IMG/VR virus record: IMGVR_UViG_3300031851_000044
Span: 1-46,550 of that record
Length of the DNA: 46,550 nt
Reading direction: 5' to 3' (one strand)
DNA from: a virus
Shown here in pieces: positions 21,669 to 45,092 of this stretch. Each line of letters starts with the position of its first letter. Position 1 is the first letter of the stretch. The position numbers and the translations under genes were made by a program. A model generated the notes under the pieces. It was not told the origin of the DNA and did no database searches. It saw only the letters and a program-made list of their open reading frames with translations.

Positions 21669-22688
21669 CTACTTGAGCCTAGCAAGAATCTTACTTCGTG
21701 GAGACCTCTCTCCAATGCTCAGGACTGTAGCGCGAATGGAAGGTCTAGACTCGTCTTCGTAAATTCCCCGGTGGATGTAAGAGTTTGGCATAGTGGTCAG
21801 GTACTTGTTTACCACTCCGGTAAAGAGGTCAAAGAACCTAACGTCACCATCGAGAATCCTGCTCGGCATGGTAAGCACCAGAGCGCAGTCCGACTCTTTA
21901 AGTGGCGAATCAGAATGAAGCACTGTGCCAGCAGTGAAGGCTATGTTGAGATGCTTCTCAACCAAGGTCCTGTCTTCCGGATTGTTAATTTCTCTAGACC
22001 CCACAAAGAGGGTCCCGCTTCTAAACATAAGCGTTTTAAGATCAGCCTTATCCAAACTAACCAGCATTGTTGGGGTAGCGGAGAGCCTATTGATTTTGTG
22101 AAGTATGTTTGCAAATGCAAGGTTACCGTCGATCCATAGGGTCCTTAATGATCTAGGCTTAACCCTTTTCTTAACTAGCTCGTTATCCATCACAATGAAT
22201 GGGGAAAGCTCACCTGAATCAGCCAAATCACAGCAGACACTAAGAAGGTTCTTGGCGTTTCTCCTTGTGGCGTCTGACACCAGCTCTTGCTTTGCAGGCA
22301 TGGATGATATCATTCCAACAGGAATGGATGGTAGACACATCTTCGCTACCTCAAGAACGGGCAACGCTGCACCTGAGCCAGTTCCTCCACCCGCACCAGT
22401 GCATATGAACACCTGGTCGCAATCAGACAAAGCCTTAATTGCGTCCCCTATTTCTTCCCTTTGGTTGGATGCTGCCTCTTCTGCTATAGATGGGTCTTTG
22501 CCTGCTCCGTCACCCGATTCCCCAATCAGAAGCTTTAAGTCCGATGGTACATCAAGTCCAGCTAGGTCTACATTGGCAGTATTTATGAATACACAGTCCT
22601 TGTATCCCAGAGAGTAAAAAGACTGAGCAATTCTGCATCCACCCTGACCTATCCCTACGAACCCCCACCGAAATGACACCTCACTCAT
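21669..22688 (-). CDS. FtsZ/tubulin-superfamily GTPase
   Basis: 339 residues. Seen: T1 loop GIGQGG (12-17), FINTANVDLAGLD (35-46, T2 region), GAGKDP (61-66, T3), the tubulin signature GAGGGTGSG (98-106, T4), MDNE (167-170, T6) and a catalytic T7 loop SLDKADLKTLM (211-221). That loop matches FtsZ N-x-D-x-A-D-V-x-T-V-M, with both aspartates (D213, D216) kept and Asn replaced by Ser. The C-terminal domain ends in IHRGIYEDESRPSIRATVLSIG-type sequence, as in FtsZ, but only a short basic tail follows and no FtsZ C-terminal peptide is visible. Known: such proteins form GTP-driven filaments. Start overlaps the upstream coiled-coil gene (ATGA). Inferred role: phage cytoskeleton for DNA or capsid positioning, or interference with host division. 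Confidence 0.9.
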   Translation of the reverse strand: MSEVSFRWGFVGIGQGGCRIAQSFYSLGYKDCVFINTANVDLAGLDVPSDLKLLIGESGDGAGKDPSIAEEAASNQREEIGDAIKALSDCDQVFICTGAGGGTGSGAALPVLEVAKMCLPSIPVGMISSMPAKQELVSDATRRNAKNLLSVCCDLADSGELSPFIVMDNELVKKRVKPRSLRTLWIDGNLAFANILHKINRLSATPTMLVSLDKADLKTLMFRSGTLFVGSREINNPEDRTLVEKHLNIAFTAGTVLHSDSPLKESDCALVLTMPSRILDGDVRFFDLFTGVVNKYLTTMPNSYIHRGIYEDESRPSIRATVLSIGERSPRSKILARLK

Positions 22689-23071
22689 AGGTCGAGACCT
22701 CGAAGCCTATCCACAAGAAATGATATGGTCTCCATCATGCCCGTAGCTCCACGTTCTAACCTGTGGCAATCACTCCTGCATCCGTTCAGTTTATACTGGG
22801 TCTTCTCATGTTCCTCAGTTAGGTCATCAAGCTTCTTCTGAAGAACCTCTGACTTCTCGCAATCCTTAACCAGGCCCTGCAGTCTATTTATATCCGCCTT
22901 CTGAGCGTTCATTGTTTGATTAGCATTTACGATGGCATCAATTAAGTAGTCAAAGGCAGTGCTTCTCTTGATGGAGATGCTGGTCTCTGGGTCACTCTTC
23001 GTAAGCTGCTCGCCGATCTCCTCGAGCCTTTGCAGCCTCATGTCGTCGGTATTGATCTGTATTCTAGGCAT
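22685..23071 (-). CDS. RHH-like/coiled-coil protein coupled to the FtsZ-like GTPase
   Basis: 128 residues from ATG 23071 (AAAGGA upstream; the longer frame overlaps the neighbour too far). Residues 1-50 (RIQINTDDMRLQRLEEIGEQL, here cited as RIQINTDDM then LQRLEEIG, and SISIKRSTAFDYLIDAI) have the strand-helix-helix look of ribbon-helix-helix DNA-binding proteins. Residues 51-105 are a heptad-type coiled coil, with a final amphipathic helix to 128. Its stop overlaps the GTPase start (ATGA), so the two are made in fixed ratio. Inferred: DNA or filament adaptor, comparable in role but not clearly in family to TubR/TubY. The RHH call is moderate. Confidence 0.6.
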   Translation of the reverse strand: MPRIQINTDDMRLQRLEEIGEQLTKSDPETSISIKRSTAFDYLIDAIVNANQTMNAQKADINRLQGLVKDCEKSEVLQKKLDDLTEEHEKTQYKLNGCRSDCHRLERGATGMMETISFLVDRLRGLDL

Positions 23072-23441
23072 TTTTAATCCTTTCAAATGACTTGGGGATG
23101 CACTTAATCCACGCATAAGGTCTTCTTACTTGGGTGTTGTATGTTGGGTCAGCCTGATTGTCATATGCCTCGATTTCGAAAGGAGACATTCGGTAAGCAA
23201 GGTAGGTATCTCGGTGATAAGCCAAGAGTATAACCCACCCTAATCCGTACATTATCCACTGCAGAAGAAAAAGACACTCCTTTTGCTGGAGGTAGTGCGT
23301 GATTTCATGCCTTCTAAGTGTTGGGCTTGCGATCCCACGGCACCAGACGAATATTAAAAAGGAAAATCCACCCACCTTAAAAGGCGCGATCTTAGAAAGT
23401 AGTGATGGAACCCTGGAGTTCTCAAAGAAAATCGGGAACAT
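23064..23441 (-). CDS. Membrane-associated HExxH metallopeptidase-like protein
   Basis: 125 residues. A membrane segment is visible near residues 22-36 (VGGFSFLIFVW), then the zinc motif HEITH (45-49) followed by YLQQ, a second hydrophobic helix (LLQWIMYGLGWVILLAY, 59-75) and FEIEAY (88-93), where Glu is a plausible third zinc ligand. This HExxHxxQQ...FExEAY layout is found in a small family of phage and bacterial membrane proteins. Known gluzincin logic supports a protease; substrate unknown. It overlaps the coiled-coil gene by 8 bases and sits inside the operon leading to the FtsZ-like gene. Confidence 0.7.
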   Translation of the reverse strand: MFPIFFENSRVPSLLSKIAPFKVGGFSFLIFVWCRGIASPTLRRHEITHYLQQKECLFLLQWIMYGLGWVILLAYHRDTYLAYRMSPFEIEAYDNQADPTYNTQVRRPYAWIKCIPKSFERIKNA

Positions 23442-36273: not shown

Positions 36274-36830
36274 GTGATCTGTATAAGTTCTTTAAGGTTT
36301 GATTCGTCTGCGTAGTCTGCGGGCCACGCCTTCTTGCAGAACTCGAGACCGACAAAGAAGGCTCCGGACCTTTCCTTGTACTCGAGACCCTCCTTTTCAA
36401 ATGATGCCCTCATTGTTGGTGCGAAACCCTTTGCAGGGTAAAAGGCTCTCCCTGTTTCTTTGCGTATTACGACGACAGATATTCCAGCCTTGTTGAATTT
36501 CTTTATAATCTTCTCTGCTGCAGCCAGAACGGTAGCGCCTTCCTTGATCTCTCGGAATGCAACGACGTGATGTCTCCAGTCCCGCATAAGTGCTGCAGGC
36601 ATCATCCACGGCACGAATCCAACCTTATCCGGGCGATCCCTCTCCCTGAACTCTCCCTTAATCCAAAGGCAGTCCCAGTCTTTGCATGTGGGTGGTCGAT
36701 GCTCATACATGGTGCATCCGTCATTAGAATATTGGCAAGGCTTGTTCGCAGGCTTATTGAGCTCAGGCACAATCATCACTTCGCAACAGGCTGTGCAAGT
36801 CCCGCATTCTCTAGATACTTTAGCAACCAT
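36270..36830 (-). CDS. YkgJ-like cysteine cluster protein
   Basis: 186 residues. The N-terminus has Cys9, Cys12, Cys15, Cys16 (ECGTCTACCEV), then Lys-Pro-Cys32, Cys39, YEHRPPTC49 and W-x-C54. This CxxCxxCC...C...C..YE.RP..C pattern is that of the YkgJ/zinc- or iron-chelating family (UPF0153). The C-terminal half is an alpha/beta region with IIKKFNKAGISVVVIRKET. Biochemical role of the family is not established. It overlaps the lysozyme-like gene by 11 bases, so they are coexpressed. Confidence 0.75.
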   Translation of the reverse strand: MVAKVSRECGTCTACCEVMIVPELNKPANKPCQYSNDGCTMYEHRPPTCKDWDCLWIKGEFRERDRPDKVGFVPWMMPAALMRDWRHHVVAFREIKEGATVLAAAEKIIKKFNKAGISVVVIRKETGRAFYPAKGFAPTMRASFEKEGLEYKERSGAFFVGLEFCKKAWPADYADESNLKELIQIT

Positions 36831-37254
36831 CTACGCAAACACCTTCCGAAACCGATACTACGACTTCCCTCATTTTCATTACCTTGTCCCTGTAGGATCG
36901 ACGCCCTTTTGACTTAGCACACTCTCCACCAGATGAGTATCTACACAAGGACTCATTCAGACCATATCTCAACTCATAGTATTTAAGTGCATACATTCCA
37001 GCGTCAATAAGGTTGCAGGGGTCAGACTTGCACCAGAATCGACGCATGACCTGCATTGGACCAACGGCTCCCGCAGAAGACACAAGTCCTCTCTGAAGCC
37101 CACTCTCGACGTGTGAGACCGCTATTGCGAGCACCGGGTCCACGTCATGGAGCTCCGCAGAGCTAACGACATCTTCACATACTTGAACTCGGTGCTGAAT
37201 GTTGTTGGAATATATAGAGCTGACAAAGGTCAGGCATAGTAGTGGGCAAATCAT
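36820..37254 (-). CDS. Exported SLT-type lytic transglycosylase/lysozyme
   Basis: 144 residues. A short hydrophobic leader (ICPLLCLTFVSSIYS) looks like an export or signal-anchor sequence but lacks the usual basic N-terminus. The SLT motif follows: LAIAVSHVESGL with catalytic Glu50, then SSAGAVGPMQVM (59-70) and ALKYYELRYG. Known role: cleaves the peptidoglycan glycan strand. Four or more cysteines suggest a periplasmic disulfide protein. Ribosome site GGAAAGAG. Located in the leftward early-type region, far from the membrane cassette at 18.8-19.9 kb. Confidence 0.85.
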   Translation of the reverse strand: MICPLLCLTFVSSIYSNNIQHRVQVCEDVVSSAELHDVDPVLAIAVSHVESGLQRGLVSSAGAVGPMQVMRRFWCKSDPCNLIDAGMYALKYYELRYGLNESLCRYSSGGECAKSKGRRSYRDKVMKMREVVVSVSEGVCVDGC

Positions 37255-37791: not shown

Positions 37792-39000
37792 TTAACTTTG
37801 TTGAGCTCTAATCCCGTACTCTTTAGGTTCCTCTGTCAGTGTTCGCGGTCCAACCCATGTTGGTGCCACCCACTTCACGGTCTTCTTTCTTAGATCTTTG
37901 GGCAGCGGATTGCCATCGGCATCCAACTTCCTGCCTGTATAGTAAGTGTGGAGATGTCCTCTTCGGATATGTCCTGCACTTAGTTTTTGCCCATTAGTTA
38001 TTCCTTCTCTACTCGCCCTCTCCTCAAGGCTTTTCTCAATCCAAATTTTGTGTTTTCCGACCATAGAGTTGAGGGCTTTGCGGACCTTGCTTTTTTTTCC
38101 GCTGAAAATATTTGCCCTTACTTTATAGGTTGTATCTACAACGTCTTTGTTGGCAGCCTCCAGATAGAAACACAGCCCACAAAGGGTCGATATCCAACTG
38201 TATACGTAGTCTCGCTCATCCCCTATAAGGTCTAGAGATGATTTGTGCCAGGTTTCGTCGTAGTGCTTTGTAAATCCGGTCAGGCTGTTCTTTGTGCCTG
38301 GAATTCTTTTTAGCTCAGCAAGTTCACCCATGTCGATATGTGACATGAACCATTCATCTCCATAACTATGGTAGGTCAAGCCGATTAGCCTTGCTCCAGT
38401 GTCGGCAAAGAAAAGTAGATAGTTTATGCCGTCCTTGGCGAATCTAGCTACATAGCAGCCCAAACCTGGTCCGATAGTGCTAGACTTAAAATAGGCGATA
38501 TCAAACGGGAGCCTGGAGAACAATTTATTCATTATCATGATTGCGCCATCTTTCGGTCGTCCATCCGAAGCCGTCCGATTTGCTTCGACTTCGCAGATAT
38601 TCATAAACTCCTCGGACATCAGTGGTCCAATCTCAAACAGTGGAGCACCCCGAGTCACCCAGTTTCCATACAAGGTGTCATGGAAAATACAAGATCTAAT
38701 TATGGCTGCATCATCGCCAGTAAGGGCCTGCTGCAAACGCTCAGCATGTTCTTCACTATATTCTTCACTAGATGATTCACGGAAGTCTCTGAGTTCGGAC
38801 CTTGTCTCATCCAGTGTTGGCGAGCCAGGGGCGCATAATGCAAGCAGGCTGTCGACCGTGATAGAGTCACGAAACTGTTGCGGATGGGCTAAGCAAATCT
38901 CCTTTATTCGAATAGGTGTTTCACTGTAGTGGACCCGCCTATAATACGGTGACAGATCATCACTAATCGGTGTGTCGTCTCGGTTTAAATTACTCTTCAT
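37792..39000 (-). CDS. AcrVA2-like C-terminal motif protein (candidate anti-CRISPR family member)
   Basis: 402 residues with a strong ribosome site (AAGGAGG before GAAACATG). The central region contains RLPFDIAYFKSSTIG, NYLLFFADTGARLIGLTYH and a Cys-rich CGLCFYLEAAN. The C-terminus has HIRRGHLHTYYTG (344-356) and VKWVAPTWVG (375-384). From memory, the AcrVA2 anti-CRISPR from Moraxella ends with a closely similar HIRRGHWHGYW...RW.P..V. Homologues with this tail are widespread in phages and plasmids, and most are uncharacterised. Known for AcrVA2: it blocks Cas12a production by binding the nascent N-terminus. Whether this protein has any such activity is inference; the N-terminal 130 residues are not recognised. 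Confidence 0.6.
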   Translation of the reverse strand: MKSNLNRDDTPISDDLSPYYRRVHYSETPIRIKEICLAHPQQFRDSITVDSLLALCAPGSPTLDETRSELRDFRESSSEEYSEEHAERLQQALTGDDAAIIRSCIFHDTLYGNWVTRGAPLFEIGPLMSEEFMNICEVEANRTASDGRPKDGAIMIMNKLFSRLPFDIAYFKSSTIGPGLGCYVARFAKDGINYLLFFADTGARLIGLTYHSYGDEWFMSHIDMGELAELKRIPGTKNSLTGFTKHYDETWHKSSLDLIGDERDYVYSWISTLCGLCFYLEAANKDVVDTTYKVRANIFSGKKSKVRKALNSMVGKHKIWIEKSLEERASREGITNGQKLSAGHIRRGHLHTYYTGRKLDADGNPLPKDLRKKTVKWVAPTWVGPRTLTEEPKEYGIRAQQS

Positions 39001-39018
39001 GTTTCCTCCTTCGTTTCG

Positions 39019-44237: not shown

Positions 44238-45092
44238 TTATCCTGCTATTTGATAAAGTTCTACTTGTCGGTCCCTCAGCAGGTCCGGTTGTGTCGCATT
44301 GCCGTGGTAACTCAATGCGATCCGCTTATGACCTAGAATCGCTAGAGTATCAGCGTACTCCTCGCTTTGACCGTCTATCCATCCATCTGGTATTTCAGCG
44401 CCCTTGGCGAATACCTGAGCAATCGGTAATGATTCGTCTATCAGGTGATCGAATTTCCCCCCGTGACTCTGCGTTAATTTAACTCCGGCATTCACTAGTG
44501 ACGTCAAGTCGAGATTCAACGATTTCGTATATGCATACGGAATGAACTTGACGTCATGCCCTAGCATAGCCGGTACCAGTTCGCGTGTTCGCTCTACCGC
44601 TTGCGCTATTGCGTCAATATACTCTTGACTGAAAAAATCCCCTGAATCATGCAATCTCAAAACTGCTATACCATCATCTCCTACATTCCCTACAATCCAG
44701 GACACGAATTCTCTCGTTAACAGTTTCACCATATCGCCACACTCCTTAAGACTGATTAGGTTTCTAAACCTTATTGCCTGGGTACGAGTCATAGCGAATC
44801 GACCTTGCATCGCGTAGCAGTACGTCATACAGTCCATAGCGCCTGGACAAGTGACAATGGCGGGCAAGTTAAACGATCCTATCGTGACTTTCTCTCCTAA
44901 CATTTCCTCTAGTAATCGAGCGGTCAAAACTAGTTTGTAGTTACCCGTGGGTTTTTTCCCCCGTCCTACCCTGTGTTTAACTTTCGATATTTCGCATCGG
45001 AGATGATCCAGCATCCCACGGGCCATCTCTTCGGCCTCAGAATACACTTTTCGAATTCTCTTATGGTTTACCGCTGATTTCTTTACTTTCAT
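44238..45092 (-). CDS. GP88-like protein
   Basis: 284 residues. A cysteine block TCPGAMDCMTYCYAMQG (Cys82, Cys88, Cys92) plus ARFRNL-type sequence (AIRFRNL) matches the 'cCPg.t..C...CYA..g' motif of the GP88/mycobacteriophage gene-88 family, whose biochemical function is unknown. Other segments: VLRLHDSGDFFSQEYI and VKFIPYAYTKSLNLDL, GVKLTQSHGGKF. The leader has tandem GTTTC units (plus strand). Three Cys near the N-terminal third may ligate a metal or cluster. Confidence 0.7.
   Translation of the reverse strand: MKVKKSAVNHKRIRKVYSEAEEMARGMLDHLRCEISKVKHRVGRGKKPTGNYKLVLTARLLEEMLGEKVTIGSFNLPAIVTCPGAMDCMTYCYAMQGRFAMTRTQAIRFRNLISLKECGDMVKLLTREFVSWIVGNVGDDGIAVLRLHDSGDFFSQEYIDAIAQAVERTRELVPAMLGHDVKFIPYAYTKSLNLDLTSLVNAGVKLTQSHGGKFDHLIDESLPIAQVFAKGAEIPDGWIDGQSEEYADTLAILGHKRIALSYHGNATQPDLLRDRQVELYQIAG

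Follow-up and report, generated by a model that had tools for sequence, protein, structure and literature searches.

The analyzed stretch of DNA, hereafter the window, is a 46,550 bp IMG/VR virus record. Its genes include those for a terminase, a portal, a head protease, a major head protein, and a tape-measure protein, as well as those for a DnaB-like helicase, a RecE-like exonuclease, a Sak-like annealing protein, and an SSB. An open reading frame (ORF) with an ATG start at positions 37792–39000 of the minus strand encodes a 402-residue protein. A sequence-only reading had compared the tail of this protein, HIRRGHLHTYYTG...VKWVAPTWVG, with the end of AcrVA2, and the quoted residues match the translation exactly, near the C-terminus. 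The strong ribosome site that it had noted corresponds to a Shine-Dalgarno sequence, AGGAGG (39005–39010, minus strand), located 4 nt upstream of the ATG. The gene belongs to a run of mostly short leftward ORFs, with the late genes oriented rightward, in agreement with the leftward region described in that reading. A homologue in another virus shares 90% identity with the window protein, and the comparison of the two genes yields a dN of 0.048 against a dS of 0.31; the window gene is therefore maintained under purifying selection.

In three relatives with 40% identity (L035–L037), the family gene is flanked by genes for a DnaB-like helicase and a RecE-like exonuclease. Since these neighbors fit an early gene, the gene layout suggests that the window gene is probably expressed early. 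A scan of genomes with the window-subfamily profile detected no relative. Matches of the window terminase and helicase to isolates show ~27–40% identity.

Further genes were recognized on the minus strand of the window. A Transglycosylase SLT-domain protein (36820–37254; Pfam, E 1.1e-7) is encoded two genes downstream of the AcrVA2-like gene, and a homologue of it also lies near the family gene in L035 and L036. A GP88-family protein (44241–45092; Pfam PF17338, E 2.1e-22) is encoded within the leftward block. At 21672–22688, a 339-residue GTPase of the tubulin/FtsZ family (Pfam Tubulin, E 1.1e-17) matches PDB chains of FtsZ, RepX, and TubZ, with no match among isolated phage records. The adjoining ORF at 22685–23116 has weak Pfam matches and could encode a partner of this GTPase.

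Profile relationship to AcrVA2

The phrog_6160 profile, annotated as "unknown function", matches residues 238–384 of the window protein with an E-value of 9.5e-6, and the AcrVA2 chain 7CI1 (residues 31–319) matches the same profile at E 2e-56. When a profile built from 13 phage members was searched against the PDB, AcrVA2 (7CI1/7CI2) was the sole match (E 2e-35). Approximately 140 superfamily members were gathered from genomes and viral contigs, and one of the loci (L165) encodes AcrVA2.1 itself. The window subfamily (six sequences) was then aligned with the other members (110 sequences) using hhalign. The full-length profiles are related with a probability of 98.5% (E 1.9e-15), which increases to 99.8% (E 2.2e-28) upon inclusion of six bridging sequences. 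After removal of everything from the HxRxxHxH motif onward, the probability is 88.9% (E 2.4e-6), or 97.7% (E 1.4e-12) with the bridges. Ten column-shuffled controls and one reversed control remained at 0.0–0.2% probability, with E-values of 0.26 or worse. The sequence-only reading had raised the question of whether the profile match would be limited to the short motif, and these alignments indicate that the relation extends past it.

In direct comparisons of the window protein or its subfamily with the AcrVA2 clade, the C-terminal part alone aligns and the body gives no match. As judged from the alignments, the link between the window body and AcrVA2 runs through the wider family. Single-sequence searches of the window protein against Pfam, NCBIfam, PADLOC, and the PDB yielded no match, a tblastn search of phage records with the full-length protein returned nothing at E 0.01, and the window-subfamily profile alone did not find AcrVA2 in the PDB. 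The armadillo-repeat PDB matches of this profile are attributed to chance, as is a match of the tail to Chryseobacterium phage MA9V-3, which falls in a short unrelated ORF. The proposed kinship to AcrVA2 is nevertheless upheld, given that the likeness of the tail is above chance in the phrog_6160 match and that homology past the tail emerges in the family-profile tests. We assign a probability of roughly 0.95 to the membership of the window protein in the AcrVA2 (phrog_6160) superfamily.

The superfamily includes members from genomes of Pseudomonadota, Bacillota, Bacteroidota, Actinomycetota, Planctomycetota, Deinococcota, Nitrospira-type, and other bacteria, as well as from many phages. The occurrence of signature-bearing members across many phyla and phages agrees with the earlier suggestion that the conserved tail marks a broad superfamily. 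In a tree of 57 sequences, whose long branches make the finer placement unsure, the window protein and the bridges form an 11-member clade (support 100/99). The Moraxella AcrVA2 sequences (Moraxellaceae clade) group apart from them (100/100), within the rest of the tree. By sequence, the window protein is thus placed in a deep clade apart from the AcrVA2 clade and outside AcrVA2 proper. Among the other family loci, copies in Pseudomonadota genomes (L211–L213 and L204) appear to be interrupted by stops or frameshifts, and the genome of Azohydromonas australica contains several copies. The family gene of Dickeya phage JA13 (2626–3210 of locus L007) overlaps an annotated (p)ppGpp synthetase/hydrolase gene by 4 bases.

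Domain organization and predicted fold

The window protein is divided into three regions, all encoded on the minus strand. The N-terminal region (residues 1–110; 38671–39000) consists of predicted helices and has the lowest mean conservation in an alignment of 105 sequences. The middle body (residues 111–340; 37981–38670), which is predicted to comprise a beta-sheet and a long helix, is covered by the motif-free profile match to the superfamily and by a fold match to 7ci1. By alignment, it may be equivalent to the Cas12a-peptide-binding body of AcrVA2. The C-terminal region (residues 341–402; 37795–37980) is composed of predicted beta strands that carry the family signature, and it is the most conserved part, with a mean information of 2.36 bits versus 1.30 and 1.66 elsewhere in the 105-sequence alignment (window numbering). 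The signature is H344-x-R346-x-x-H349-x-H351 ... G356 (37933–37971), and H344, R346, H349, H351, G356, and W377 are all present in the window protein. The first four residues correspond to His286, Arg288, His291, and His293 of AcrVA2, and G356 corresponds to Gly298.

H344, R346, H349, and H351 are invariant in the 105 sequences, which were selected in part by search patterns requiring the motif. Among the profile-found loci with the tail present, the great majority keep the motif, and one intact ORF (L201) lacks it. The Escherichia phage EC001 member carries Cys in place of the last His. Absolute invariance of the motif was discounted, because the search patterns demanded the motif and these two members deviate from it. 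A relationship to HEPN RNases, which are characterized by R-x4-6-H, was also considered. Textually, R346-x4-H351 is present. The signature is nevertheless predicted to fall in beta strands and not in an all-helical domain, and this candidate was rejected.

An AlphaFold model was calculated from the 105 sequences, which include AcrVA2 relatives, so that it could be drawn toward the AcrVA2 fold. Its mean pLDDT is 64 and its pTM is 0.62, with block means of pLDDT reaching 92–97 over residues 351–370. In a Foldseek search with this model, AcrVA2 was the top match (E 3e-4) and the only one in the PDB with an E-value under 0.001. The best matches in BFVD include jumbo-phage proteins of the phrog_6160 type from Erwinia and Dickeya. 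With VIA, 7ci1_B was the best match, with a Z-score of 9.0 and an rmsd of 6.0 over 235 aligned residues (model residues 16–385), and the next unrelated chain after AcrVA2 scored 4.2. The comparison of predicted folds that had been proposed thus places AcrVA2 first, and the model has an AcrVA2-like fold, subject to the bias that AcrVA2 relatives in the alignment may introduce. The model derived from the six sequences of the window subfamily alone has low confidence (pLDDT 39.8), and Foldseek matched nothing clear with it. AcrVA2 ranked third by Z-score (5.1) for this model, but with the most residues aligned (174).

The window protein and AcrVA2 share the predicted order of a helical N-terminal part, a beta/alpha body, and a small beta C-terminal part, together with the HxRxxHxH...G...W signature. 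AcrVA2 and AcrVA2.1 of Moraxella prophages (PDB 7CI1 and 7CI2; L165) belong by profile to the same superfamily as the window protein. They differ in that their identity is ~16–20%, AcrVA2 comprises 322 residues as opposed to 402, and the window protein has an extra C-terminal P..YGIR tail. Furthermore, Trp292 within the AcrVA2 signature is replaced by L350, and 20 residues separate the signature Gly and Trp of the window protein, compared with 8–13 in most members. The window protein also belongs to a different clade and shows no link to Cas12a. The phrog_6160 family includes proteins of Erwinia, Dickeya, and Escherichia jumbo phages and of Pasteurella phages. The window protein resembles them in its profile match and signature tail, whereas its clade is a divergent branch, and the family threshold is missed by some of its closest relatives (L019). 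That AcrVA2-like proteins are more widespread is already known in part from huge phages (PMC7162821) and a Shewanella phage (PMC10846135). In the latter, vB_SbaS_Y11, ORF43 was reported to be AcrVA2-like on the basis of fold and sequence. It is described as highly homologous to 7CI1, with domain boundaries up to residue 358 (PMC10846135).

The detection of the tail alone in pairwise and AcrVA2-clade profile comparisons, together with the low confidence of the unbiased model, is what would be expected if domain swapping or convergence had supplied a short tail motif to an otherwise unrelated protein. Such an origin is very unlikely in view of the motif-free profile–profile matches, whose controls are flat, and of the fold match spanning the whole length at a Z-score of 9.0.

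Target and mode of action

AcrVA2 reportedly recognizes the LSKT nascent N-terminus of Cas12a and thereby triggers the decay of the Cas12a mRNA (PMC13131331, PMC12908700), and this mechanism is presented as the first of its kind in prokaryotic systems (PMC13131331). Of 74 genomes with a family member, one, that of Moraxella lacunata, gave a match to the Cas12a model, and it doubles as a positive control. Although genes may be missing from draft and metagenome assemblies, this count is far off the pattern that dedicated Cas12a inhibitors would produce. Phages and plasmids may also encounter Cas12a in a host different from the one sequenced. Among 398 sampled genomes of one phylum, phrog_6160 matches were detected in 18 and Cas12a in one, never in the same genome. 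Cas1 was present in 21 of 34 carriers versus 9 of 14 control genomes, showing no sign of enrichment. The single Cas12a among 74 carriers argues against Cas12a as the general target of the superfamily, although it proves nothing for any single member. Most members are likely aimed at something other than Cas12a, and the same is probably true of the window protein.

The homology to AcrVA2 and the chance that the virus host carries Cas12a would both suit a window protein that functions like AcrVA2, as a genuine though divergent inhibitor of Cas12a. Its position in a separate deep clade, the missing match between its body and the AcrVA2 clade, and the scarcity of Cas12a in both genome counts make this very unlikely, and the action on Cas12a envisaged by the sequence-only reading is unsupported. 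Another possibility is that the ancestral role was a different RNA- or ribosome-related job, such as regulation by the phage of the translation of its own or host mRNAs, and that Cas12a inhibition evolved late, in Moraxellaceae elements. AcrVA2 is a shallow tip of a very broad family, Cas12a is nearly absent from the carriers, and the gene lies within a replication and recombination block in relatives, all of which favor such an origin. However, no alternative activity is known, and the reported mechanism of AcrVA2 already acts at the ribosome and could itself be ancestral. We consider this history possible, with the odds somewhat against it.

The window protein is best explained as an accessory phage protein of the AcrVA2 superfamily, probably expressed early, and the odds that it acts in an AcrVA2-like mode appear evenly balanced. 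To our knowledge, no function has been described for any member outside the AcrVA2 clade, and the term "translation-coupled" would be transferred to the other members by analogy with AcrVA2. In this mode of action, the divergent N-terminal region and middle body would read the nascent N-terminus of a particular protein, from the host or a competing phage, while it emerges from the ribosome. The conserved C-terminal HxRxxHxH part would then execute or recruit the destruction of the mRNA under translation. A divergent reader joined to a shared C-terminal effector is proposed because conservation is strongest in the C-terminal region. Since the machinery behind the AcrVA2-triggered decay is unknown (PMC13131331), we infer a functional role of the HxRxxHxH part, AcrVA2 included, and nascent-peptide recognition and mRNA destruction by the window protein are likewise suggested by analogy. 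Tentatively, and at less than even odds, phrog_6160 may represent a phylum-spanning family of phage and mobile-element proteins, in which each member destroys the mRNA of a chosen protein during its translation through a shared HxRxxHxH active part and a divergent peptide-reading body. In that case, AcrVA2 would be one tip directed against Cas12a, and the window protein a deep branch with another target.

In these findings, AcrVA2 is a minor tip within a large family, most of which lives without Cas12a. This family view points to His286, Arg288, His291, and His293 of AcrVA2 as conserved residues to probe for the decay, and it raises the question of which other proteins are silenced by the relatives of AcrVA2. 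Should the body prove to be a swappable peptide reader, this family would offer natural tools for protein-specific gene silencing.
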